The position numbers and the translations under genes are program-made. Below the pieces are notes generated by a model that saw only the letters and a program-made list of their open reading frames with translations, was not told where the DNA came from and made no database searches. A stretch of 64,000 nucleotides of DNA, taken from Heterotrichella gracilis (lineage: Eukaryota > Sar > Xanthophyceae > Tribonematales > Xanthonemataceae). The stretch is taken from assembly GCA_032358255.1 (NCBI GenBank), contig JAULBX010006331.1:1-64000 (forward strand), in the 5' to 3' direction. Below, piece by piece: positions 19,102 through 59,368 of this stretch; position 1 is the first letter of the stretch; each line of letters opens with the position of its first letter.

Positions 19102-19411
19102 CCTGAAAGATATTAAGCACTGGGGCACTAACAGGGACAAGGCGGCCGAAATGAGGCAGAGATTGGGGCGTTCCTCCGCTTATGAGCCAAAAAAGAGGAG
19201 CCTGCGGTCCGGCCGCCGCGGGCAGAGGAGGCAAGGAAAAAACGCCCCGTTTCACAGTGCATAAATATCACACCTTGACGGCTGGCAATAGTGGAAAAAG
19301 CACGCCGGCAGGTTTGGCTTCATAGCCTGGTTTGGGCGCCCTATCTCTTCCTTTTCCGGTGCATGGGCAGCTTGTAGCCTGCTTGTAGCATCTGCCTGCA
19401 ACCCAGCCAAG
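19102..19411. promoter_or_regulatory. Shared bidirectional promoter RPLP1 / RPS14
   Basis: Only 310 bp separates the start codons of two cytosolic ribosomal protein genes. An AT-rich ATAAATAT box is at about 19261-19268. A pyrimidine tract CTATCTCTTCCTTTTCC at 19341-19357 lies just before RPS14 and resembles a 5' TOP element. Co-regulation of the two genes is an inference. Confidence 0.55.
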
Positions 19412-19861
19412 ATGGCTCCCAAGAAGCGCGCTGAGAAGGATGAGAACGTGACCCTGGGCCCCGCCACCCGCGAGGGCGAGCTCATCTTTGGGGTGGCCCA
19501 CATCTTCGCCTCCTTCAACGACACCTTTGTGCACGTCACGGACCTGTCCGGCAAGGAAACCCTGGTGCGCGTCACCGGCGGGATGAAGGTCAAGGCTGAT
19601 CGCGACGAGTCCTCTCCCTACGCAGCCATGCTTGCAGCACAGGATGTGGCAGAGAAGTGCAAGGTCCTGGGTGTGAACGCCCTGCACATCAAGCTGAGGG
19701 CAACCGGTGGAAACAAGACCAAGACGCCAGGACCTGGAGCCCAATCCGCCCTGCGTGCCCTGGCCCGCGCAGGCCTCAAGATTGGACGCATCGAGGATGT
19801 GACACCCATCCCCACTGACTCCACAAGGAGAAAGGGTGGGCGCCGTGGGCGCCGTCTGTAG
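19412..19861 (+). CDS. RPS14: 40S ribosomal protein S14 (uS11)
   Basis: A component of the small-subunit platform near the mRNA exit. This is a single uninterrupted 149-codon frame, the only intronless gene in the window. It begins [17 protein letters not shown] and contains the uS11 core: [40 protein letters not shown], and [20 protein letters not shown]. It ends with the basic [11 protein letters not shown] tail that reaches into the decoding region. Length and ends match eukaryotic S14 exactly. A TGTAA motif at 20215-20219 is a plausible poly(A) signal. Confidence 0.98.
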
Positions 19862-36969: not shown

Positions 36970-39366
36970 TGTGATGGGATGGAGGGGTGGGCAGCGGCAC
37001 AATCTATATACCGTATCATGGTACAGGTGGGATGTTCATAGGGAGGTGGGCAGGCCTATGTATTTTCCTCTCCAAATGGTCAAGAATGCAGAAGTCTAGA
37101 TAAATGGTTTCAGATGATGTACACTAATGTGGGGGTATGACTATTATGGCATTTGACGTTTTACGAGGATTTTCTAGACCCGTGGCTGGGTGCTATAGCT
37201 AGCAGTTGATGCGCATTTCCTTTTGCTTTTATACTGAACAACCTGTTTGTTTTGTTTTCTGGTAGTTAATGTATTCAAGCCCAGAATGGATCCTTCCTGC
37301 CAAAATGAGTTGTAGGTTTGTAGTTTCCTGCAGTAAAATACCACCTAGCTGCAAGTTGTCACAAGTGAGTCATGAACAAATTTGACCAGCTGTTCTGGAT
37401 GGTTGTGGTGCCCTGGTGCCCCTTTGTGCGTTCCCTTCCTTTCAAAGGCTTCAAGTTTCTCCTACAGTTATCGTGATCTGAAGAATAATACCCAAAAATA
37501 GTATAATATCATTCAGTGACACGCAGCCCGTCTGTGGGGTGTTGGGTTTGTTTTGGGAAACTTTCAGGAAATCCCTGTTTTTGGAACCCAATCTTATTGA
37601 TGCAATCAGTAAAGATGATGCCTGCAGGCCTGGTCTAGATCTAGACGATCGTAGTAAACTAGAAGCTTCGAAGGTTTCACAAGCGATGCACTCCATTGGA
37701 AGTTGGCAACTTCAAGTTGGAAGTGACATAAGAAAGTATCACAGTCGACAATGACTTCATCGATCAAAGCTGCCAAGCTAACACAAGGGCCCCCTGACTC
37801 CGCCTCTGTGCGTTCCCTCGGGCAACTTGCAGAAAGCTTAGTTGCGTGCTTGCAGAAAGCTGTCACACGTGTATCACTTTGGCAAGTCTTGCCAAAATGA
37901 TTCTTGGAATCACTCAAGGTTTGGCAAGAATCATTGCCTAGTGACTAGTCCCGGCACTACTAGCAAAATGGCATATTGAATAGTGGGTACTTATTTCACC
38001 GTGAGGATCTAGCTGGCCCAAGCAGTACAAACTCTGCACATAACCTGTTGGCATGAGATGCAAACTTCTCACGTATACGACACAGGTATTACCAAATGCA
38101 AGAGCGGCAAGTTTCTCTGGCCACATCAGTATGATGGTCAGGAGGCCCTGGCCCCTAGCAAGCACAGGAAATTCCTAGCAGTTGTCTACTGTCATAGTCT
38201 GGGACCTCTCGTGGGGTAACCACCGCTGTACTTGTGCATGCCATTTGGCATTGTACACAGCGACACAAAAGGACACGCGGCATGCAAGACTCAGGTCTCT
38301 ACTCTCATGATTCACCACCCCACGCACTCTGGAAAATGTTATCCCAAGACCACACCATGGTGCGGTGCACACCAAGGCTGGCACGGCCCCATCCTGCCAC
38401 ATACACATTCCATGTAACATGCGCACGATGTGGCACCCTCTTCCTTCATCAAAGTCCTCCTGATCACTCAGTCCTCCTGATCGCCTAGCCTCCTGCCAGT
38501 CCCAATAGCTGTTCCAGCCCTGTCGCCCACTGGCCACTAGAACAAGAATGGAGCCCATGGAGTGAGCCTGCGCATGCCTCATGCCACTCCCCGATAGCTG
38601 ATCCCGCCCTGCCACCTCCTGTTCATCAGAACATGAATGGAGCACCTAGAGTGGGCCTACGTCTCTGGGCTGAGACCCATCCTGCACGTGCCCACCACGC
38701 AGCCTTCTCCCTAAGAGCCGCGCGGTCCAGCAGACCGCCTTGATGCGTGTGCTAGTAGGGTGCGTGCCCCCCTAGCAGACCATCTTGCAGCTAGTAGGGT
38801 GCGTAGCCCCGTTTATGCTGCTGCTTGTGGCTCGCCTGTTTGCCGTAGTAGGGCGACGGCACTGCCAGTGTGGCAGTGGGGTAGGTGGACCCAATCCCAG
38901 GTGGCAGCAGGCTGCGGTCTCCTGCAACAGGGGTCCAGGATTTAGGTGGCAGCAGGTAGGAATTGAGGGTTAGGGTTGTAGAATTAAATTATTCTGCTAA
39001 GTTGAATAACCCTAGTCCTAAATGTTCGGGTTGTAATAAATGCAAATCTATCACATTGTGGCTAAACTGCGCCGTTTGCACCCGCGCCATGTGCATGTAC
39101 TCGAGTGTGATCATGACACTGTGCGAATTGTATTCCATGCTGCCCAGGCACACACCACCGCGACAAGTGCAGCATGGCCCCCACATGCCACTCCGCGCGC
39201 CCCACACAAGCTCACAAGCAGGAACCCCAAACTAAACCCCTACACAAGCTCACATGCAGGAACCCTAAACTAAAACCCTACACAAGCTCACAAACAGGAA
39301 CCCTACAACCCAACACATGTAGGAATCCTAAACTCTACACAAGAAGGAGCCCTGAACCGCTCACAG
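36970..39366. other. Convergent intergenic region with decayed duplications; no gene seen
   Basis: This is the longest gene-free stretch (2.4 kb). The frames are short. A diverged tandem duplication of about 90 bp is visible: the block around 38496-38570 (CAATAGCTGTTCCAGCCCTG, then ATGGAGCCCATGGAGTG) recurs around 38589-38660 (CGATAGCTGATCCCGCCCTG, then ATGGAGCACCTAGAGTG). CTAGTAGGGTGCGTG is repeated near 38752 and 38792. No transposase or RNA gene was recognised. Confidence 0.45.
39204..39345. repeat. 38-bp minisatellite after the UIEF-like stop codon
   Basis: Units starting ACACAAGCTCACA at 39204, 39242 and 39280 give an exact 38-bp period. Each contains GCAGGAACC followed by CTAAAC-like telomeric sequence. 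Further units decay up to about 39345. The array lies within or just beyond the 3' UTR of the minus-strand gene. Confidence 0.85.
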
Positions 39367-42146: not shown

Positions 42147-45100
42147 ATGGGGATCCCCATCACGCTCACCCCCATCTCGGGGGCCAGGGACGCCGGCCCG
42201 CTGTGCTACCACCTGCAAATCAAGGGCTTCAACTTCCTCCTGGACTGCGGCTGGAACGACTTCTTCGACCTCGAGTCCCTTGCCCCCTTGATAGCCCTAG
42301 CCCCCAAGATCGACGCCGTCCTCCTCTCCCACCCTGATATTAACCACCTGGGCGCCCTCCCGCTTCTGGTGGCAAAGTATGACCTCACCGCGCCCATCTA
42401 CGCCACCAGCCCTGTGCAGAAGATGGGGCTGATGCACGTGTACGACCAGTACCTTGCCTTCCACCAGGCGCAGGAGTTTGATGTGTTTTCGCTGGATGAC
42501 GTGGACGAGGCCTTTGGGCGCATCAAGCAGCTGCGGTACTTGCAGAACGTCACTGTCAGCGGTGCGTACTTGGGAGGGGGTCATGGGAGGGTGCATGCAA
42601 GAGTTCATGCAAGGGCACAATCAAGGGCACATTGGGCCCCAATGATTGGGGTGCATCAGGATTGCATGTGAGGGTACTCCATGCGCGGGTTCATGGTAAG
42701 GTGCATGTGGGGATACATGCAAGGGTACAAGCGAGGCCATGTACTAGGGTACATGCAAGTGCACATGTGAGGCGATGTGCTAGGATGCATGCGAGGGTGC
42801 ACGGGATTGAACTCCATGTGCTGTGCAGCAGGACAGGCATCTATGTTGGGGTATTCAAATGCCTGCAACATGCATCATCATCACAAGTGCGCACTCCAAC
42901 CCGTCCATCCACTGTTAAACTCCTTTTAACACCCACCCCCTTGCCGCCCAGGCAAGGGCCTAGATTTCCTGCTAGTGCCCATCGCCGCCGGCCACCTCAT
43001 AGGGGGGACTGCATGGCGGATCATCCACGACGGGGAGGAAATCGTGTACGCCATTGACTACAACCACCGCAAGGAGCGCCACCTGGTGGGGACTGCGCTG
43101 GAGGCAGCCGTCAGCAGGCCTGCGCTGCTGATCACTGACGCCTGGAATGCGCTCAAGGGGGCAAAAAAGGAGGGGAGGCAGGGGGAGGCGGACAGGTGAG
43201 TGGGTGCTGCGGGCGCCTGGTTGGACATATCTGGTGCATGCAGACATGGTTGGGCGAGAAATGCGGTCACGCAAGTAACGCAGGCTAGTGCCAAGATTTG
43301 TTTGCCCACAGCAAGAAAAAACAACCTCCCTGCATTTCTCAGGGCCCCCACTCGCACTCCTCTTTGCAGCAAGCTCCCTTTTGTCTTAAAAGAATTTCCC
43401 TGAAAACCCCTCATTCTTTGCAGCGAGCTCCTGTCCCTCATCATGCGCACCCTGCGGAGCAACGGCAGCGTGCTCCTGCCCGTGGACGCAGCGGGCAGGG
43501 TCCTTGAGCTCATCATGATCCTGGAGGCGCACTGGTCGCGAGACAACCTGAGCTACCCCATGGCGCTGCTCAGTAGTGTGGCCTACCGCACCCTGGAGTT
43601 TGCCAAGAGCCAGCTGGAGTGGATGAACGAAGAGATACTGGCCACCTTTGGACACAGGCGGAACAACCCCTTCAGCTGCAGGTGAGTGCACATGGGCTAC
43701 TCTAATTACTCAGGACCTTGCAAAATCTGCGCATACTTGGCTTTCCATGCTTACTTTGAAGGTGCTGTCAGCACTGACAAGGTGGCCCTGCTTGTGCTAA
43801 AGGGACTGCTCGTCTTACAAGTTAATGTACTGCGTGCGGCTGACCAACCCAATGCACGCCTGCAGGTACCTCTCAAGCTTTGCCGCAATGTGCGCAATTC
43901 CCATTGCATGCTGCTGACCAACTAAAGCATCGATGCAGGTACCTGAAGCTGTGCCACAACCTGCACGACTTCCAGTCCTTACCTGCTGGCCCCAAGGTGG
44001 TGCTGGCCACACTGTCCAGCCTGGAGTCAGGCATGGCCCGCCAGCTGGCAGTGGAGTGGGCACAGGACCCGCGCAACCTCATCCTGTTCACATCAGCAGC
44101 ACAGGTACAGTCACAGGAGCCGTTGCAGTTACGTGCGTGCCCTGTGTGGGGATGCATTGGCTGATTGCTGTCGTGAGCCATGCCATGCACTTTTGCCAGC
44201 ACAAGCCATGAACCTTGCCTTTCACCCTTGCACGTATGCTGCGTCCTGAGAAAAGGACTTTTTTCTACGGTAAATTTTCAACCGTGATCGTATGTACAGG
44301 AGGTTATTTTTTATAAGTGTACTTCTCTCATAATTACCTCAAAAATTACTATGCAATTACTGACAATTATGATTGTTATTATGGTCTGTCTACATGCATG
44401 TATCATTGACAAAACCATCGCATTTGGCTCAACCCCGCATTTAAGCCACGGCACTCTGCTGGGCCCTCGCAGGAGGGCACATTAGGTCACTGCCTTCAGG
44501 AGTACGCCACCGCCCCGGGGGTGCTGCAATTAAATGTGGCCCTCTCCCGCCGGGTACCCCTGGAGGGGGCGGAATTGGAGGCATTTCTGGAGGCCCGGCG
44601 GGCCCAGCAGGAGGCAGAGGCAGTGGTGGAGGCGCAGCCCGCCATGGAGCAGCCGCTGAGGTAAGAAAACCCTTTCAAACACTAAATAGGCAGCCATGGA
44701 CCAGCGGCTGAGGCAGGGAAGGAGCGGGCTGCACTCTTGGGTTGCTGAGTACCCAACGCACCCAATGGCAATAATGGGGCAAAAGGAGAACATTAATGGC
44801 AGGGAAGGAAGCGCTGATGAGGGACAATTTAGGTGGAGCACCCAGGGTGCGTTGCAGCTGGCTAGGCAAGTGTATTTGTCAATCTGAACGTCTACTCAAA
44901 CGCGTCCAAAACCCTAAATAGTCAGCCATGGAGCAGCGGCGGATGTAGGAAAGGAGAGGGCTGCACTCCTGTGTACTCAGCAACCCTTTTTCAAACTCTG
45001 TGTTATTGAGTATCCAAACGCACTCAATGGCAGGGATCGGAAAATGAGAAAATTAATGGCTGGGAATGAAATGCATACAAGGGACAATCAGGTGGAACAC

Positions 45101-47444
45101 CCAGGGTGTGGTTTGGATGGCTAGGCATTACAAAGCAGGTTGCCTTGCGTGACGCTGTGTGTGCATGTGTGTGTTGCAGGAGCAGCTCGCTGAGGATTGG
45201 GCGGGTGGTGCATGGAGCTGTGGGGATCCCTGAAATCATTGGTGTGGATGGGAAATTGGCTGCTGACGCTGGCGCGGATGTCCCAGACGTGCTCATCGAT
45301 GGTTTTGTGGTGCCCGAGGTAGGGATCAAGGAATTTGCGATGTAACGCACGCCTTATCTATACTTATCTATCCTGGGATTAACATGGTGGCCGCTGCTGT
45401 AGTCTGGAGTAGGGGCTGAGAATTATGCGTAAAGTCTATCGTCCAATATCTAATTGTGCTTTTACCTAATCATGTGGCACGCAGATGGTCTGCTGCAACA
45501 TGTTAGACTCCATAACCATGGGCGACATGATCTTCTAAATACTTGTCAACCACCTGACTGAAGTTTGGCTAGAGCGCTGCAGTTGCCCCCGTCCCCTACA
45601 CCCCGATGCCCATCTGACTGTGCGTGTTTCCTCCCCTGTGCAGGGTGCTGCTGGTCCTATGTTCCCCTTTGAGAGTGAGTGGGAGGAGGCGGTGTGGACC
45701 GACTATGGAATGGCACTCGAGCCGGATGAGTTCAAACCAAAGGAGCTGCTGGATGCAGGTATGGGGGAAGAGTGGTGTGTCTCCATGCGCATTTGCGATT
45801 TGAAAGAGTGGTGTGGACACTATCATGCTGCAGTGATCTTCACATTGCAGGAACATATCATGCTCATGGGCTCAGATATGGTCATACCATGCACTTCTGC
45901 TGGTGCACCTTTTGGGGTGTGGAAGGTTGACACTAAGATCCTCCACATCAGACACGCAGCACCATATTTGAACCCAGCTCTGATCTGAAGACATGAATTG
46001 CTCTTCAATCGTTTTTTTGGTCTGTGCAGCTGTCCGGGCTGTGGAGGAGGTGGACATGGAAGAAAACGAGGGAGGGGAGGAAGAGCTGCCGACGAAGATT
46101 GTGAGCAATGACGTGCGGGTGGTGGTGCGGGCGCGGGTGCAGCTCCTGGATGACTATGAGGGCCGATCAGATGGCCGCTCTATGCGCAACATCATCACGC
46201 ACGTGTGCCCCAGGCAGTGTGTGCTGGTGCATGGGACGGAGCAGGTGGGGCTGCATGCCAACTTGTTTCCATTAGAGGGGGTTTGCACTTGAGCCTTTAC
46301 AAGGGGCTTGGCACCTTGAAATACCTTACCAAGGGTTGTACTCACAGGATATTGGTTGTATGATTGCACCCAGTGGGCAATGGCTAGGCCTGGTGGTTTC
46401 ATCATGCAGCGTACACATGCCGTTTGACAAACTTTTTAATGCCACGCGTACAGTTTTCTCTGCATAAGTCATGTTACATCATGGCTCATGTATCCCCCAG
46501 CATGTGGCCACACCCACCCGCTACCTCCGTGCGCACATGCTTCCAAAACCCTAAGCCCTAAACCCTGCCCTGCAGGCCACCGCATCCCTGCAGTCCGCCA
46601 TCAGCGCTGAGCTGGCGCCTGACCGCTGCCACGTGGTGGCGCCAGCTGTCAACGAGCCAGTGGACGTCAGCATCACCACCAACTCCTACCAGGTGGTGCT
46701 GTCAGATGGCATCCTGGCCACGCTCAAGAGCCGGCCCATGCAGAAGTATGACATCGCGTGGATCGATGGGGTGATGGGTGCTGCGGAGGGGGAGGTGAGG
46801 GATGAATGGGAGGGGGGAGGGGGGCGATGACAGCATGTCATGGTGGCAATTGGCGATTGCAAGAGGGTCAATCCAAAATGTGGGAAGGTCCTGAGTTGGC
46901 ATAACAAATTGCCTGCTACATGCCGTTGACCGCTTTCTCTACTGGCACCACAATTAAGGCCAAAAATCCCATGTATTGTCCTGCTTGGCCTTTCACCTTG
47001 TGTTCGTCTTGGGTGTTTCAGCATTGGCTGTCATTCCATCATCATCTCCTTGCCTCTGCCAGAGCATTGCACTACCCACACAACAAGCAGACCACCACAA
47101 GCCCTTGGATACCTGCATGCGCCGCTCCCCCTTAACCCTTCACAAACCCTTGCCGCCCCCTCGCCGCCCAGGACCCGCTCCCTCAGCTGCTCCCCGCCCC
47201 CGCCGTGGACGTGTTTGGCAGCAGCGGGGGGGTGTTTGTGGGCCAAGTCAAGCTCTCCCAGCTGCTTCCCGCGCTGCGCAAGGCAGGCGTCCCCGCTCAG
47301 ATGGCGGGTGGGCAATTGTCGTGTGCCGGCAACGTGACTGTGCGAGCTCTGGGTGAGGAGGGCCAGCTGGTGGTGGAGGGGGCGCTGTCTGAGATGTTCT
47401 ACCGGGTGCGCGACGTGGTGTACGCGCAGTACCACATCTGCTGA
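42147..47444 (+). CDS. CPSF100: Cleavage and polyadenylation specificity factor 100 kDa (CPSF2)
   Basis: The non-catalytic metallo-beta-lactamase/beta-CASP partner of CPSF73 in the pre-mRNA 3'-end cleavage complex. Ten exons (42147-42561, 42952-43195, 43424-43681, 43939-44104, 44473-44660, 45180-45318, 45644-45758, 46030-46244, 46576-46794, 47172-47444) give 743 residues, normal for the family. The N-terminus [32 protein letters not shown] and [20 protein letters not shown] are typical. The zinc-binding HxHxDH of CPSF73 is replaced by HPDINH, as expected for the inactive paralogue. Beta-CASP blocks include [26 protein letters not shown], and [27 protein letters not shown] is the C-terminus. 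Introns 3 and 5 contain duplicated exon-edge sequence. Confidence 0.97.
43839..43985 (+). repeat. 73-bp tandem duplication spanning the CPSF100 exon 4 acceptor
   Basis: GCTGACCAAC..TGCAGGTACCT..AAGCT.TGCC.CAA recurs with an offset of 73-74 bp (43839 onward and 43913 onward). The downstream copy is the real acceptor and start of exon 4. The upstream copy is a diverged pseudo-exon edge inside intron 3 with its own CAG acceptor at 43863-43865. Confidence 0.75.
44643..45135 (+). repeat. Duplications of the CPSF100 exon 5 end inside intron 5
   Basis: The exon 5 end CCATGGAGCAGCCGCTGAG recurs as CCATGGACCAGCGGCTGAG (near 44693) and CCATGGAGCAGCGGCGGAT (near 44926). The two intronic copies head a diverged direct repeat of about 230 bp (about 44681-44912 and 44913-45135) that shares GGGCTGCACTC, CAATGGCA, ATTAATGGC, GGGACAAT and CACCCAGGGTG. 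Confidence 0.75.
46546..46571 (+). repeat. Telomere-like CCCTAAA tract before CPSF100 exon 9
   Basis: AAACCCTAAGCCCTAAACCC lies directly upstream of the CCTGCAG acceptor at 46575 and forms its pyrimidine tract. Confidence 0.75.
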
Positions 47445-51317: not shown

Positions 51318-54300
51318 TCAAACAGCCAACATCCTCCTGCCAGTGCGCTTTGGAGGTGGCGACCTGCGCTTTGGAGGTGGCGACCTGCGCTTTGGAGGTG
51401 GCGACCTGCGCTTGGGTGGGGGGCGCTTGAGGCTGGGCTTAACGGGCGGCGGCCTCTTGGCTGTTGGGGGAGGTGGGCGATGCACTGAGGTTGTGGAGAC
51501 CTTTGGTGGCGGTGAGCGCTTGGTAGGTGGTGGGGACCGCTTAATAGGTGGTGGGGACCGTTTGGTAGGTGGTGGGGACCGCTTGGTAGGTGGTGGGGAC
51601 CGTTTGGTAGGTGGTGGAGATCGCTTGGTGGGTGGTGGGGATCGCTTGGTAGGTGGTGGGGAACGCTTGGTAGGTGGCGGGGAACGCTTGCTTGGCGGTG
51701 GCTTTTTGACGGGACTGGGTGGTGGCCGCTGTGGTGGCGAGGGTGGAGAAGGTGGCAATGGTGGCTGTGGAGGTGGTGATGGTGGCTTGGGTGGGGTTGG
51801 TGGCTTTGGTGGCGGTGGTCGCGGACTTGGTGGAGATGGTGGCTTGGGAGGGGATGGTGGCTTGGGGGGTGGGTGTGGTGGGCTGGGTGGCTTCGGTGGG
51901 CTAGGAGGTGGCGATGGGAACTTGACTGCAGAGGCAAATGTGCGTTGGTACGTGGCTATGCAAATGAGAGCCTTTCACCAAGAGTGTGCACCAACCATCA
52001 CCTTATTATTTTAATTAATAAAAAATAGTTTAGGGTTTAGGGTCTAGGGTCACATTTCAGTGAATGTGGAGTTACAGGAAACTCATTGTGATACACAAGG
52101 GCAATACTGAATGCAAGCAATGCCTCAGGCAAACTGCATTCACCTCAAAAATCCAAAACTACTTATAGGAAACGAGCTCAAGATGAATAATGCCCTATCT
52201 ACCACATTACCTTTGACAGTGACGTTCTTATTGACGTTCTGGACATTGTTGATATCAAGATTACCACTGCGCGACAGATTGAGCAAAGCCCCAGTTTCCA
52301 CATTAGCACCAGGTGCCACCTGAAGGTTGAGGGTGTCAATGATCTTGCCAATGGTTTGCGTCTGTGATGTGCCTTCAACTTGCGCTCCATCACCACCGCC
52401 TGCAGGACAAATGTGTTTCAATGACAGCACGCCTTCAAATATTTGTATACGGCAGTTGTGTGTGTGACAGCCGACATAGATCACTGTGAAGTACATGCCA
52501 AACATCGCTTGGAGTAGATTAGTCAGATAAAATCTGACACAGCAACAACAGCAAACCTGTTCACAAAACTGCTTGGATTCATTATTCTAGCTATTTTGTT
52601 TGAATATTTTCCCCTTCAATGCCAATGCTACGTGTTCATCTTCAACCAAAATGCTTTGTATGCCAGGCTATGTCAAACAAACTCAACCTACCCCAGGTGG
52701 AGTTCTTGGTCAAAGGGAACGAAGTGGTAGTCTGGTTGAATGCCACTTTGTTTCCTTGGTTGATGTTGCTGTTGATGGTCGTCAGCAGCGTAACATTCTC
52801 CCCCGTGGTTGCTCCAACATTGATGAACTGTTGCATGGCCTGATTCCCAGTTGCATCTACCTTGCTGCCTTGCGGCACCGTCAGCGAGTTGAGAGTAGAC
52901 CCTAGGACACAAGTTGGTCCTGGTCAGAAAGGTTGCTAACAAGGAGGAAAATTGCAAAATTGTCCATGGATGCATCCACCATTGTCACATACATTAAAAC
53001 AGGAGGTGCAGTAATGGAAAGCCACACAGCAAGTAGCAGCCATACCTGGGTTGCCATAGACGGAACTGCCACCTCCACTTGCTGAAGACACTTGGTTAAT
53101 GTTGGATTGTGCATCTTGTTTGACGACATTGTTGAAGCTGTTCAAGAAGGTGTGGTTTCCAGTGAATTGAGTTTGATCATATGAAACTATTTTTGAAAAT
53201 GCCTGGTTGGACGAGTCTGCTGATGTCCATGCCAGATTATTGGTAGCATTTGCTGCACAAACATACAACTGGGTGAGTATACAGTGCAAATCATGATTCC
53301 ACCAAGCATGGTTGAATAAAAGTTGCAAAAACCCCATGAACTGCTGGTGACTTGTACCTGTAGCATTGGGCCCGATGCTCCCATTTGCCTGAGAATGCTG
53401 GTTGAAAACATGGTTCTGTGTATCTGTGATGGTGTTGTACCGTCCAAAGTCCACAGTTCCATTGTTCTTGTCCCCTTGTTGCAAGAACTGATCAACCTCT
53501 CCACTCAACCCACTGTTACTGGCTTGCTGCAGGCTTCCAGTATTTGTAGCAGAAGCTGCACATCATGCCAAGGCAAGGTTAGTTGTAACATAAGCTGGAA
53601 CATAACGGACCCAACCCAGCCTGTGAAATCCAAGCGCTTGCAGTTTTCTCTGTGATGCAAGGAACATTCAATAATGCCGGATGGTAATGCTCACCTGACG
53701 TGTTTGTGCCCGTCCCAGCAACAGCAGTGGCATTTTGGTTGAAATGACCATTGACATCTGACGCAAATGTTGCATTGCCACCAGTGATGTACTTGTTGAC
53801 ATTGTTTACACCCTGGTTGACATTGAGGTAGGTCAAGGCAGTTTGGGAGCTGCTGTGGCTGGCATCCTGGCTGGTGGTCACGTTGTTGCTGGCAGGTGCT
53901 GCAGGAACCACACGATATCCATTAAAAAGCATATTTTGTTGTCTGTTTGAATTTACAGCAGAGGGAGAGCAGTACAGCCCGTCACATCAAATTTTGCAAG
54001 GCAGACAGTATTTACCTTTGGTAGATTTCACAACGCCACCAGTGCTGGCAGCCAGCTGCGCATCTGTCTGTGACCCAGTCTGGCTGACAGACTTAGAGTT
54101 ATCTCCTTCCAGGGTAAGATTGCCACCACCCGACAGGATAAGCAAGGTGACAGCCGGGTCGCTTGAGCTGGCTGACTTGGTGGCATTGTGCGTAGCTGTA
54201 TTGCTGGCCGTTGCTGCAATGAGTGACACACTGTCAGCAACAACTGGGACAGGCGCACCCATGTGAGATACACAATACCATGCAGTTATTATGGACACAG

Positions 54301-57300
54301 GTGTCAACCAAATGCAAATCAATATGGGCAATGGTTGTGTGCCGGGCCAAGTATGCAGGATGACAGTAAGTTGTGTGCCGACCTGTGTTGTTGGACTTGG
54401 AGGTAGCGTTGCTGGTCTGGTTCCCAACATAGTCCCCCTGCTGGTTGAGGGAGTGGTTCCGCATGATGTTCACCGTCGCTGACACAGATCCTTGAACTTC
54501 AATGTACGGGGTGTAATCGGCACCACCATAGCTGACTTTGTTGTCCAGGGTGTTGGTTCCGTGGTTTGCCAGGTTGACCGAGTTAGTGTTGTTGGCTGCA
54601 GGGAAACCACAGGGTAATTCAGATGCAGCACACTCTAAAGCTGTGACCAGCACCAACACTAGTGTGTGTATGCTCCACTGCTGCATATCAATGCACTTTT
54701 ATGCCAAATGAAAACATGTAATGCAAGCCATGCCATGAACATTCCCATGCCATGCACAGCTACATGCATGCCCCAGGACACATCCACCAGCAATGGCCAC
54801 CATGCAACTTCAATCTTTGTGGTGCTGACCTGTAGCATTGGCACCACCAGCACTGCTTGAAGCCGACTGCACGATAGTGTAGTTTGTCCCTTGCTTGACA
54901 CCATCAGCGGTGCCGCCATTGATGGCCACCTGCCCACTGGACCCAGTGACATTGTACAGCACTTCATCTCGGACTCCAGACCCATTGAAGGTGTTGCTTG
55001 CTGACTTGGTGACAGAGTTGTTGCTGGTAGCTGCACAAACAGGACCCGCTCACCGCACGCATTGTTATCCATACCCAACATGCACAGAGGTAGATAAGCC
55101 ACATGGGTTGGCCACCATCTAGAAACAGTGTCAGGCAAGCCATGGTTTGTGGACTGGGGTGAGGTATACCCAGGCATGCCAATCTGGAATGCAGATTCTT
55201 GCTTACTTGCATGGGTTGACTGGACGAACAGCACCTCAAATCACCCAAGATCAACATATGGTATAAACAATGGCAGGACCAGACTGGCACAGCATGCAAG
55301 GTTGACCAGAAATTTAGCTGCATCTTTGGAATGCATGGAAGTACCAGCGACACACCCACTGCAGGCAGGGCATCCTATCATTTCTGCTACCCATGCAGAC
55401 ATACGCTTACCGTTGTTACTGCTTCCACTTGCTGTTGATTGCTGGCCAACTGAAGCAGCGTTACCCTGGCTGTTGCTGGTGTTGTGACCCCCCACAATGG
55501 TAGCTGAACCACCAGTCTGTCCATTGGTGACGCTGATGTTGTCCACCCAAGTCTGCTCGTTGTTGTAGGCATTGTTACCAGAAAGGGTGGCGTTGTTGCT
55601 TGCACTGCTGCCTGCAGTAATGTCACGCCCTATTAGCTGCCAAGCGCTGCAGGGAATCTGTATGTGTTTGCAACCTACATGCGATGCATTCAGCCATCAT
55701 TATAAACCCTAACCCTAAACCCTATACAGTTTCACAATGCTGCGCAGCTGTACACTCACCATCGGTCTTGGCTGCAGCAGATTGCGTCAGGTTGTGGTCA
55801 TTGCTCTGGCTCCCACTGGATGTGCCAGCAAGTTGCACATCAGTTGTGTAACCTGATGAGGCTGTGTTCCCAATCTGGACATCTTGTGTCAAGTTGGTTT
55901 TGATGTCCCCACTGTTGGCAGACGTGATGGCACCTGTGCTCTTCCCAGACCCTGCAGGAAACAGATAGAGCTTGGATACACGTGACTCATGACTCACGTG
56001 GCATGAGACATGATGGACAGGATACCAACTTCTGGCAATTGCAATTCGAGATTGCAAATCATTCTCACCTGACCCCGCAGCACTGCCGGTCTGAGTGATG
56101 TTGTCATTGTTGGTCTGTAAGCTATCGTGGCTGATGGTTCCAAGGTTCACAGTGGACGATCCAGCGTCATTCAAGACAGCGGTCAAATTGTGCGATGTTG
56201 AACTCTTTGCCGAGTTGGATTGCGTGATGTTAGCAACCTTTACCAGAGTACCTGTAATGCCAAAAGCACGCTCAGTGACGATCCACATGAATGGATATAA
56301 AAAAAGCGAAATGAGCTGCAGCAACTTTACCCTTGGCTCCGACAGAGCTTGCAGGTTGCGTTGTTACCCCTTTGTTGGATTGGCCAAGGGAAGCGTTGTC
56401 AGACAACGACACATTTTTCGTTCCCGTTCCACCAATTACCAGCACGGTACCAGTGGCAGAACTGTTCCCAGAGTTGGTGTTCCACTGAGTGAGCTTTGTG
56501 GTGGTTTTGGAACCTGGATCAGAACAAGAATCACCCTTAATAAGCGATATATGATAGGGCTGCGAGCAGTAAAATAAAGATGGTGATCAGCTTTAGGCAA
56601 GCAGACCGCATATAGGTACCATGCTGGAGCTACACTGGCCATACCTGTAGCGTTGCTCGGGGTGTTTGAAGCCTGGTTGTTCACGCCAGTGTTCCTCTGT
56701 GAAACGCCCTTGGTGCTGTTGAATGTTGCAGTGGTGGACGATGTCGTTGCAGTGGTATCAACCGTAAAGTTGGTCCGGATTGCACCAGAATTGCTGTTGG
56801 ACTGGTATCCAGTGTTTGATAGAGAGGCATTGGTGCCTGTGGATGGTTGAGTCGGCATCAGGAAGAGTCACAGCTGCGTAGGAAGGCCCTCAGACTGACC
56901 TTGGAAAGAATCATATGCTGTGACATTGCAAAGCATGAGTATGCAAACCTTACTTGATTGGGTGTTGGTGTAGTTGTTCTTTTGTGATACTGTCGCAACG
57001 GAGGTGTAGTTCACAGATGATGGCCCTCCCAAAGACACATTCACAGTGTCATCCTTGTTGAGATTGTTGGTGTTGGTCTGATTCACGCTGTGATTGTTGG
57101 AAGAACCTGCAATAACATCAACCTCTCAGGATGGCACATTGGTTACATGATCCAATCATGCTTTAATGCAAACAATGCCTGCATATAACCTGATGGATTT
57201 TGGGTAGAGACACAATTGTGCACACAAAGGATAGCCCATACCTTGTGTGCCAGTGTTGTTTTGTTTGTTTGAAGCCACATTCAGCAAGCTGCTGTCTATG

Positions 57301-59368
57301 CCAAAGTTGAGGTTTACTGACTGTGACGGATCTAGGCCAGGGTTGGTCAGGTCAACAGTGGCACTGACGGTGTTGTTGATATTCTGGTTGGCTGCCTGCC
57401 TGACCGACCCAATGTTGCCTGCAAGAGAGCACACACTTTAGACAGAGTTGGGATGTACCAGCACCCATCCGGAATCCATTGTACCAATGAGGTCCAACTC
57501 AGCAAGTATCGATCCAGTAATCAATAGACGATCTGGACTGCACCTTTCTTCATGTGCACCCTTTCTGATGATACATTAGCATGTCCCTAACTGATCTACT
57601 GGTCCTCCTGCATTGCATGCAACTGCCTGACTATGTACCTGTCACCACTGGTAGAGCTGGAGCAGCAGGCGGTTGGTTGAGGATCAGGGGAGGGACCTCG
57701 TTGGGGGGTGCTGGAGGGGGAGGTGAAAGTTTTGCACCCACATAGATCACACTGCTGCCAGTGGTAGATCCGACGATGGTCTGGTTGATCGACACAGCAT
57801 TCTGGTTTCCATCTGCGCGCAACAATCCAGCATGAATGGCATAGCTGTGCCCAGAACGTGCAGCAGTGGTATGCAATCTTGCCCAGGCCAGTAGGTCACT
57901 GATCAATACGCGGCATGCAGCGGAGGACCAAAGCCAAGCATATATCCACCTCAAGTGCACACAATCCCATGGTAAAACAATGTACCATAGCATGATGGCT
58001 CAATACGGTCATTTGTTCAACCACCGTCTCCACAAGCACATTCTATGCAGCTGCATGGAAAGATCGACATGTTCCTAATAGCCATCATACCTGTTGCACT
58101 CTGATCGGTGCTGAACCTGTTGATGTTGGTCTGATCGGTGGCATCCGAGATTTTCACGCCAATGTTGCTGGACACGCTTGGGACAAAGACAGACACCCCA
58201 GTATTGGAATGGATGGTGTCGTTGATTGACTGGTTGGCTGTATACGTGTTGCCAGTTCCACTGGAAGGTGGAGTCTTTGCTGTCTGCGAGTTGCTTGCAA
58301 CGTTGGTGATGTTGGACTTGGTGGACAGGTTGATGTTCACATTGGCACCTGCGTTGGGGTCACTTGCAGTAAAATTTCTCTGTACTGAGACCACAGTGCA
58401 TGCAGGTTAGCAAGGATAGCGCCCCTTCCAAGCAGAATGCATGTGACGTTCACAGCTAGAGCAGCTGTGCCTTCCAGTGCAATGCATGAAGCACGCATAG
58501 GCAAGGGATTTAGATCCAGGACCAGGTGCGACAGCGAATTTGTTTTCGTATTGGCCAAAAATCATGGAAGTCCCAAATTCATAGCCGATAACCATGTCAG
58601 GGCATTTTTTTATTAATATTATTCCATAACTTACTTGTGACACCAGATATCCCAGTATTCGCTGATGGTCCCGGGGGTGGGAAAGGTGGCGACTGCCTAG
58701 TGACAGGTGGTGGCGCTGCCCCGTTCTGGCTCAGGTTGTCAATTATATTCTTCTGATTTGCAGTGTAGGATGAGCTGATGTCAACATTGCCGATTGTTGC
58801 CCCCGCCCCGATGGTGATGCTGGTGGATTTGGTGTTGCTGGTATTGCTGCTTTGACTGATCAAAGCCAAGCCACCTGGATCGGGAATGCAGGTCAGTCGC
58901 CAATCGTATTGGCTTGCGCAAAGCATGCAATCCAGGGCTTTCAAACTGTTTTAGGGTTGGTTTAGGGTTTAATCCTAAAACAGTTGGGAGCCCACCGCTA
59001 GCTAGCTAGCTTGCGGTGCACGCAGGTCAAACATGCCTGTCAAGTCAAGCAACGCCGTGCACGCGTGGCGCCTGTACACATACATATCTCATTTTTTGCT
59101 TTAATGCCTTGCCAGGAATTTGTATATGTATGCACTTGTTTCCATTGGAAATTCCAGTCACCCGGAAGGAAAATTAATAATAAATGAAAATGAAGATGAA
59201 AAATAAAATATCAAGTATGTCAGACAGTGCGCTACAACTTTCTGCGATTCAGTGCCATCCAAAACAGTCCCCATGAATACCTTCTGCCTGCCCTAGGTGC
59301 CCAATGACGGTCAGCACCAGCAGCAGTAGTGGTGCCTGCAATCCCCGTGCTCCTACTGGGAGCCACAT
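51318..59368 (-). CDS. Modular secreted cell-wall glycoprotein: 18 Asn/Thr/Ser-rich modules plus SPPPTKR tail
   Basis: No known family recognised. Twenty exons (59368-59281, 58874-58635, 58384-58091, 57812-57639, 57418-57242, 57106-56954, 56836-56645, 56513-56331, 56251-56069, 55951-55760, 55611-55411, 55030-54830, 54595-54383, 54213-54016, 53898-53695, 53555-53358, 53252-53046, 52901-52692, 52399-52211, 51925-51318) join without a break to 1434 residues. Exon 1 is a signal peptide (APLLLLVLTVIGHLGQAEG). Exons 2-19 are each phase 1-1 and encode 51-98 residues rich in N, T, S, G and Q. They alternate polar Asn stretches with short beta-like strands (TVNVSL, ATVDL, DVQLAG) and many NxT/S sequons. 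Modules 1 and 3 carry Pro-rich inserts. The last exon is extensin-like: PPSPPKPP, then about nine KRSPPPT units and RRSPPPK units. It is predicted to be an extracellular matrix or cell-wall protein, N-glycosylated and hydroxyproline-O-glycosylated. Confidence 0.85.
51345..51407 (-). repeat. Three identical 21-bp coding repeats (RRSPPPK)
   Basis: GCGCTTTGGAGGTGGCGACC plus T occurs three times without change (51345, 51366, 51387) within the last exon of the cell-wall gene. This is a recently expanded coding microsatellite. Confidence 0.95.
51513..51701 (-). repeat. Nine 21-bp coding repeats (KRSPPPT)
   Basis: Units of the form GACCGCTTGGTAGGTGGTGG plus G, with scattered third-position changes, encode the SPPPTKR hydroxyproline-rich repeat in the last exon of the cell-wall gene. 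Confidence 0.92.
52028..52052 (-). repeat. Telomere-like tract in the last intron of the cell-wall gene
   Basis: Three units (TTTAGGG, TTTAGGG, TCTAGGG) on the plus strand read as CCCTAAA in the transcript. They lie about 105 bp before the exon 20 acceptor. Confidence 0.75.
55701..55723 (+). repeat. Telomere-like tract in intron 10 of the cell-wall gene
   Basis: AAACCCTAACCCTAAACCCT on the plus strand reads as AGGGTTTAGGG in the transcript, the minority orientation. Confidence 0.7.
58949..58978 (-). repeat. Telomere-like tract in intron 1 of the cell-wall gene
   Basis: TTTTAGGGTTGGTTTAGGGT reads as CCCTAAA-like units in the transcript, about 80 bp before the exon 2 acceptor. The tract is also flanked by a short inverted repeat (AAACTGTTTTAGG / CCTAAAACAGTT). 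Confidence 0.65.

Follow-up and report, generated by a model that had tools for sequence, protein, structure and literature searches.

In this work, we analyzed a gene on the minus strand (59368-51318) of a 64,000-nucleotide stretch of DNA from the xanthophycean alga Heterotrichella gracilis (GenBank assembly GCA_032358255.1, contig JAULBX010006331.1, positions 1 to 64,000 of the forward strand; hereafter the window). Its product is probably secreted and structural, a part of the cell wall or extracellular matrix, with an extended body of modules and a basic Pro-rich tail, and the body would have arisen by exon duplication. The demonstrated parts of this reading are the predicted gene structure, the homology of the modules, the paralog, the conserved ends, and the failure of independent intron insertion to account for the phases. 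The gene had been noticed in an earlier inspection of the letters alone (the sequence-only reading); the full-length paralog and the conserved C-terminal ending are new here.

Gene structure and intron phase

The predicted gene comprises 20 exons and 19 introns, has its stop codon ending at 51318, and encodes a protein of 1,422 amino acids. All 19 introns have GT-AG borders and lie in phase 1, and each of the 18 internal exons (153-258 nucleotides, nt) is a multiple of three in length. The uniform phase and the multiples of three had been claimed by the sequence-only reading, and both were recovered by dynamic programming in which the phase was left free (45-nt minimum exon, codon and splice scores trained on the same gene); a hand-built model agrees in number. 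With these self-trained scores, the unconstrained model reached 555.6, compared with 194.8 for a model restricted to phase 0 and -10.1 for one restricted to phase 2. When no minimum exon length was set, the model contained zero-length or spurious mini-exons with mixed phases, and it was dropped. For cross-validation, half of the exons served for training and the other half was held out (four runs, penalty -9), and 34 of the 44 held-out exon instances were recovered exactly (9, 7, 9, and 9 of 11 per run). Exon 20 was lost in all four runs because the training set lacked a Pro-rich exon, and exons 2, 3, 4, 14, or 19 were lost in some. Phase 1 was found for 19/19, 18/20, 18/19, and 19/19 introns in these runs. 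When a smoother model was trained on the full set of exons, it produced two extra phase-0 introns at two of the three penalties; under this model the gene scored 505, compared with at most 15 for 30 ATG starts picked at random from the rest of the window. Two borders are ambiguous: for exon 3, another acceptor in phase 1 lies 36 nt upstream, and for exon 14 the model without a minimum exon length chose an acceptor 30 nt upstream (54243), likewise in phase 1. As a gene prediction, the window gene with its symmetric phase 1-1 exons is confirmed.

The uniform phase 1 is directly explained if an exon with phase-1 borders was duplicated. When the introns of the window gene were compared pairwise, nothing matched beyond 15-16 nt, and therefore no intron copies survive.

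Composition and relatedness of the modules

From its N-terminus, the protein consists of a putative signal peptide (judged by eye), a body of 1,191 residues without a single Cys, and a basic Pro-rich tail. About 61% of the body is Asn, Ser, Thr, Gly, and Ala. Of the 202 residues of the tail, 97 are Pro and 48 are Lys or Arg; SPPPxKR motifs are repeated in it, and one local repeat lies within the Pro-rich exon. Exon-versus-exon BLAST gave a best expect value (E) of 0.003. Judged by profile comparison, the modules are nevertheless related beyond their shared composition. Leave-one-out profile testing gave a mean z of 3.58, with 15 of the 18 modules ranking above 95% or more of their own shuffles (the exceptions being exons 3, 5, and 14), compared with mean z of 0.04, 0.48, and 0.24 and with 1, 3, and 3 passing modules in three all-shuffled controls. 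The similarity at distances of one to five modules was 1.27, 0.99, 0.99, 0.48, and 0.47 (mean z), and 0.55 for all pairs. One Gln is nearly invariant across the modules, the lengths and inner spacing of which vary. Moreover, the pattern Q-x-N-x(4,5)-Q occurs seven times in the window protein (1.2 expected) and nine times in the paralog (3.3 expected).

The tandem exon duplication proposed by the sequence-only reading is supported by this homology, by the greater likeness of neighbours than of distant modules, and by fresh local duplications in the paralog. Its module signature fared worse, as the claimed opening A/G-S-x-N fits only exon 6 and the closing NAT or NNT fits 4 of the 18 modules; 15 of the 18 start with A or G. 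On the other hand, its claim that no described family has this architecture agrees with the searches of Pfam, NCBIfam, PDB sequences, and protein databases (best candidates only). Pfam contained no family at the cut-off for the whole protein, the 18 separate modules, or both genes, and the best matches below the cut-off were unrelated (a phage family at E 0.028 for the whole protein; E 0.0046 for a module). NCBIfam gave no match, the module profile had none among PDB sequences at E up to 10, and the scans of viral contigs and of contigs from prokaryote genomes yielded no relative. Among the openly licensed papers that the literature searches listed, none describes such an architecture in its title or the opening of its abstract. 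The modules are best read as an undescribed family.

A full-length paralog in a duplication-rich region

A search of the alga's own genome, covering 68.5 Mb in 903 contigs, gave one further match (E 3.1e-9) on contig C471. The region (G000 contig C471, 16753-31203, loci L021 and L022) holds a full gene for about 1,700 residues, with a signal-peptide-like start, modules, PPP linkers at corresponding places, and an SPPPK/R tail; its body contains no Cys in 1,612 residues. The two proteins end in KKTGRRMLAL (paralog) and KRTGRRMLAV (window). BLASTP aligned them at E 2.8e-20 with 32% identity over about 350 N-terminal residues. The bodies are 27% identical over aligned rows, and both ends stay alike. 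The profile of the window modules ranks the paralog body above 100 of 100 shuffles.

No third gene turned up when the genome was searched again, first with the N-terminal third and then with the paralog's C-terminal half, and own-genome protein searches for the module in unrelated host proteins were convincing only on contigs C65 and C471 (two others at E 0.35 and 0.37). Among the genome-wide loci with the C-terminal motif (27 and three more, under a stop pattern that also permits TGG), Pro-rich sequence lies upstream only in the window gene and the paralog, and therefore no wider tail family was found. A tail query of the genome returned other Pro-rich stretches (26 rows, 20 of them with E up to about 0.1), as expected for low-complexity sequence.

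The final model of the paralog was picked by hand from dynamic-programming runs, so its single borders are uncertain; exons dropped from these runs include 27555-27499 and 20861-20802. Phases 1/0/2 are represented by 17/6/1 introns in the hand-picked model and by 18/7/1 in the unconstrained run. A phase-1-only model was rejected (score 396, compared with 543 unconstrained). With these phases and with modules fused or split, the strict rule of one module per phase-1 exon fails in the paralog. Seven window junctions fall in the aligned part, and four of them (exons 2/3, 3/4, 5/6, and 7/8) have a paralog junction within 5 residues. Junctions 1/2, 4/5, and 6/7 have no counterpart, and one extra paralog junction lies inside window exon 3. 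The junctions are partly shared, and therefore the order of one exon per module has been partly lost in the paralog. The six phase-0 introns stand after paralog exons C9, C11, C15, C17, C18, and C21, and five directly follow a Gln codon; they resemble introns inserted later at CAG|G-type sites.

In the paralog region we counted 22 local duplications (55 bp or more, with up to 700 bp between copies), compared with 2 in the 64-kb window. The latter are direct duplications at 38488-38661 and 44677-45127, 77% and 69% identical. In 10 of the 25 modelled paralog exons (C2, C5, C6, C7, C12, C13, C14, C16, C22, and C24), the 3' end together with the donor site (48-101 bp) has been copied 99-360 bp downstream. 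The copy of C7 is modelled as exon C8, and those of the other nine lie in introns. These duplications could provide the material from which new modules form, or they could reflect an assembly problem of contig C471.

Proposed function and alternative explanations

We hypothesize that the signal peptide directs the protein out of the cell, where about 18 modules that lack Cys and abound in Asn, Ser, Thr, Gly, Ala, and Gln would form an extended, hydrated, and probably glycosylated body. The (SPPPxKR)n tail is expected to carry hydroxyproline and short glycans, as in algae and plants, and may act as a rigid rod whose positive charge keeps the protein attached to acidic polysaccharide of the wall. 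We infer secretion, location, hydroxylation, glycosylation, anchoring, and binding from the sequence and from the hydroxyproline-rich coverings known in algae, which one article describes for green algae (PMC10762512). The sequence-only reading had proposed a hydroxyproline-rich anchor, of which the Pro-rich tail stands and the anchoring stays a proposal. The TGRRMLA[V/L] ending may act in sorting, processing, or attachment, and it appears to be the most promising lead to how the protein is sorted or attached. As to its history, the body would have grown as an exon lying between phase-1 introns was duplicated repeatedly and the copies then diverged strongly, and introns at module borders would since have been lost or gained.

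Several results weigh against this proposal. The tail has no Tyr in its 202 residues, so extensin-type Tyr cross-links are unexpected. N-glycosylation sequons number 56 in the window protein (45.8 expected, standard deviation 5.5, about 1.9 standard deviations) and 46 in the paralog (50.4 expected). They are thus at most marginally above composition and give little ground for the N-glycosylated shaft of the sequence-only reading, in which the shaft is itself conjectural. None of the single paralog modules was significant against the profile of the window modules. When single modules were folded by AlphaFold from the module alignment, exon 8 came out as a long hairpin (strands 3-24 and 31-52; predicted local distance difference test score, pLDDT, 68.9; predicted template modelling score, pTM, 0.28) and exon 14 as a looser one (pLDDT 59.3, pTM 0.22), both of low confidence. 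The window gene shows weak alternation of hydrophobic residues (z 1.8), and the paralog shows none (z -0.9). No relative outside the genome was found among just under 8,000 candidates per protein-database search, in collections poor in algal gene models; this absence is weak evidence because of the composition of the collections, and low-complexity words may crowd out relatives. The beta-solenoid that had also been suggested is unsupported, since the single-module models are low-confidence hairpins and the alternation is weak or absent. Comparison of the hairpin model with PDB folds gave 136 matches at E up to 10 and none at 0.001 or better. The top ones among those listed, long hairpins of pore-forming proteins, were given no weight, being generic for a lone hairpin model with such a pLDDT. 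On these models, the body may be either a hairpin ribbon or a disordered bristle.

In our view, it is nearly as plausible as its opposite that the body forms a glycosylated bristle with intrinsic disorder, its modules being duplicated low-complexity exons and not folded beta units. The share of Asn, Ser, Thr, Gly, and Ala, the low AlphaFold scores, the alternation values, and the variable lengths and inner spacing of the modules all fit a bristle. However, the near-invariant Gln, the excess of Q-x-N-x(4,5)-Q, and the homology beyond composition point to a constraint that depends on residue order, and both modelled modules form hairpins. A bristle concerns shape alone and is compatible with a wall protein. 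A different role is supposed if the product is a surface adhesin or recognition protein, acting in mating, flocculation, or partner contact, with fast-changing module number and sequence, and not a structural wall component. Algal sexual agglutinins have a plan of a head and a Pro-rich shaft, which the window protein resembles, and the strongly diverged paralog bodies between similar ends and the many fresh local duplications in the paralog would suit such a protein as well. Nevertheless, a low-complexity structural protein would diverge likewise, and the Pfam scans revealed no lectin or adhesion domain, so we regard an adhesin as unlikely.

The uniform phase 1 might also have come about without exon duplication, if introns had been inserted independently at AG|G-type sites of a protein rich in Gly, Ala, and Ser. 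The last exon base is G at 16 of the 19 junctions, as insertion at proto-splice sites predicts, and the phase-0 introns after CAG (Gln) codons in the paralog look like such insertions. However, phase 1 holds only 35% of the AG|G, 36% of the MAG|G, and 24% of the MAG|R sites in the coding sequence of the body, and the MAG|G sites favour phase 0 (16/10/2 in phases 0/1/2). Under independent insertion, the probability of 19/19 phase-1 introns would be 2.5e-9 (AG|G), 3.2e-9 (MAG|G), or 1.5e-12 (MAG|R). Moreover, the modules that the introns border are homologous. Independent insertion is therefore disfavoured as the origin of the pattern, and we consider it highly improbable. It is just as hard to believe that the gene is a prediction artefact or is decaying. 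Some borders are ambiguous and an outside relative was not found, but 20 open exons with consistent GT-AG sites, a score far above that of 30 other starts, and a full-length paralog sharing both ends speak for a genuine gene.

Exons and other features of the window

Exon 1 (59281-59368; all exons are on the minus strand) contains the start codon and the signal-peptide-like sequence MWLPVGARGLQAPLLLLVLTVIGHLGQAE and ends in phase 1. Exon 2 (58635-58874) encodes a module with a PPP linker at its end, homologous to the module of paralog exon C1. Exon 3 (58091-58348, 258 nt) corresponds to two paralog exons, C2 and C3, and its alternative acceptor is the one given above. A short module with a PPP linker is encoded by exon 4 (57639-57812), which in the paralog is fused in one exon with the counterpart of exon 5 (57242-57418), itself a module. 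Single modules follow in exons 6 (56954-57106), 7 (56645-56836), 8 (56331-56513, the longer modelled hairpin), 9 (56069-56251), 10 (55760-55951), 11 (55411-55611), 12 (54830-55030), and 13 (54383-54595). Exon 14 (54016-54213) is the modelled module with the uncertain acceptor, and exons 15 (53695-53898), 16 (53358-53555), 17 (53046-53252), 18 (52692-52901), and 19 (52211-52399) encode one module each. The basic Pro-rich tail with its SPPPxKR repeats is encoded by exon 20 (51318-51925), which closes with TGRRMLAV and the stop codon TGA; the paralog has the same ending. The 105-nt intron between exons 16 and 17 (within window positions 52936-53562) contains no in-frame stop, and its retention would add 35 residues with the frame kept. 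Short telomere-like runs of TTTAGGG/CCCTAAA occur in introns of the gene at about 52024-52048, 55702-55725, and 58950-58985. Elsewhere in the window, a reading frame for ribosomal protein uS11/RPS14 lies at 19409-19861, the match of which, with plant entries first, indicates no more than a eukaryote. The content of G and C is above 50% over most of the window; for Trebouxia sp. A48, contigs with 48-50% were retained as nuclear (PMC12712428).

Significance

If the window gene encodes a structural wall protein that grew by exon duplication, it would represent a mode of growth usually described for animals and would add an undescribed module family to the algal wall proteins. A secreted algal protein with 18 class 1-1 exons also offers a test of whether the phase-1 bias stems from secretion and linker composition or from animal biology, and the pair of a tidy paralog and a faster-changing, duplication-rich one may give a direct view of array growth and intron loss. 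Symmetric exons in tandem also occur in other genes, such as those of plant leucine-rich repeat receptors, which lowers the weight of the finding. A bolder idea, which we regard as quite unlikely, is that the alga independently built an animal-style class 1-1 extracellular protein, with exons kept symmetric because they are skipped, and that exon ends copied into introns of the paralog become new exons. If so, exon skipping, which the reading frame would permit, would turn one gene into a set of wall-protein lengths, and the birth of modules could be watched in progress in the paralog. One article reports that in plants and other eukaryotes the exons that are skipped are not enriched in ones that keep the frame (PMC8001218).

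Comparison with known systems

The window protein resembles the chimeric extensin-type hydroxyproline-rich glycoproteins of algae and plants in its predicted secretion, its SPPP repeats with basic residues, and its combination of a non-Pro body with a Pro-rich stretch. Repeats of Ser followed by three or more Pro in a secreted protein, which characterize hydroxyproline-rich glycoproteins, are present, with the signal peptide recognized by eye. On the other hand, its body consists of about 18 exon modules without a Pfam match, and the Tyr cross-link motifs of cross-linking extensins are missing from the Tyr-free tail. In curli-type amyloid repeats, Gln, Asn, and Ser stand at regular places with a spacing pattern of their own. 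The window modules share the regular placing of these residues in an extracellular repeat but depart from the curlin spacing, and in Pfam neither the whole protein nor any of the 18 separate modules matched the curlin repeat model at E up to 1. The pherophorins of volvocine algae are likewise algal extracellular proteins with a Pro-rich rod, which one account places between two globular domains (PMC9818292), whereas the Pro-rich part of the window protein is terminal and short PPP linkers lie near the N-terminus. The pherophorin domain was not among the Pfam matches up to E 1. With the class 1-1 modules of animals, the window gene shares phase-1 introns on both sides of each exon, a multi-module product that is probably secreted, and a signal-peptide exon that ends in phase 1. 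All 18 internal exons of the window gene form such a class 1-1 array, and the paralog conforms only partly. Exon shuffling from class 1-1 modules is described as restricted to Metazoa in one article (PMC8001218). Unlike the animal modules, the module of the window gene was found in no other gene of its own genome except the paralog, and it would therefore have spread by tandem duplication and not by shuffling between genes.

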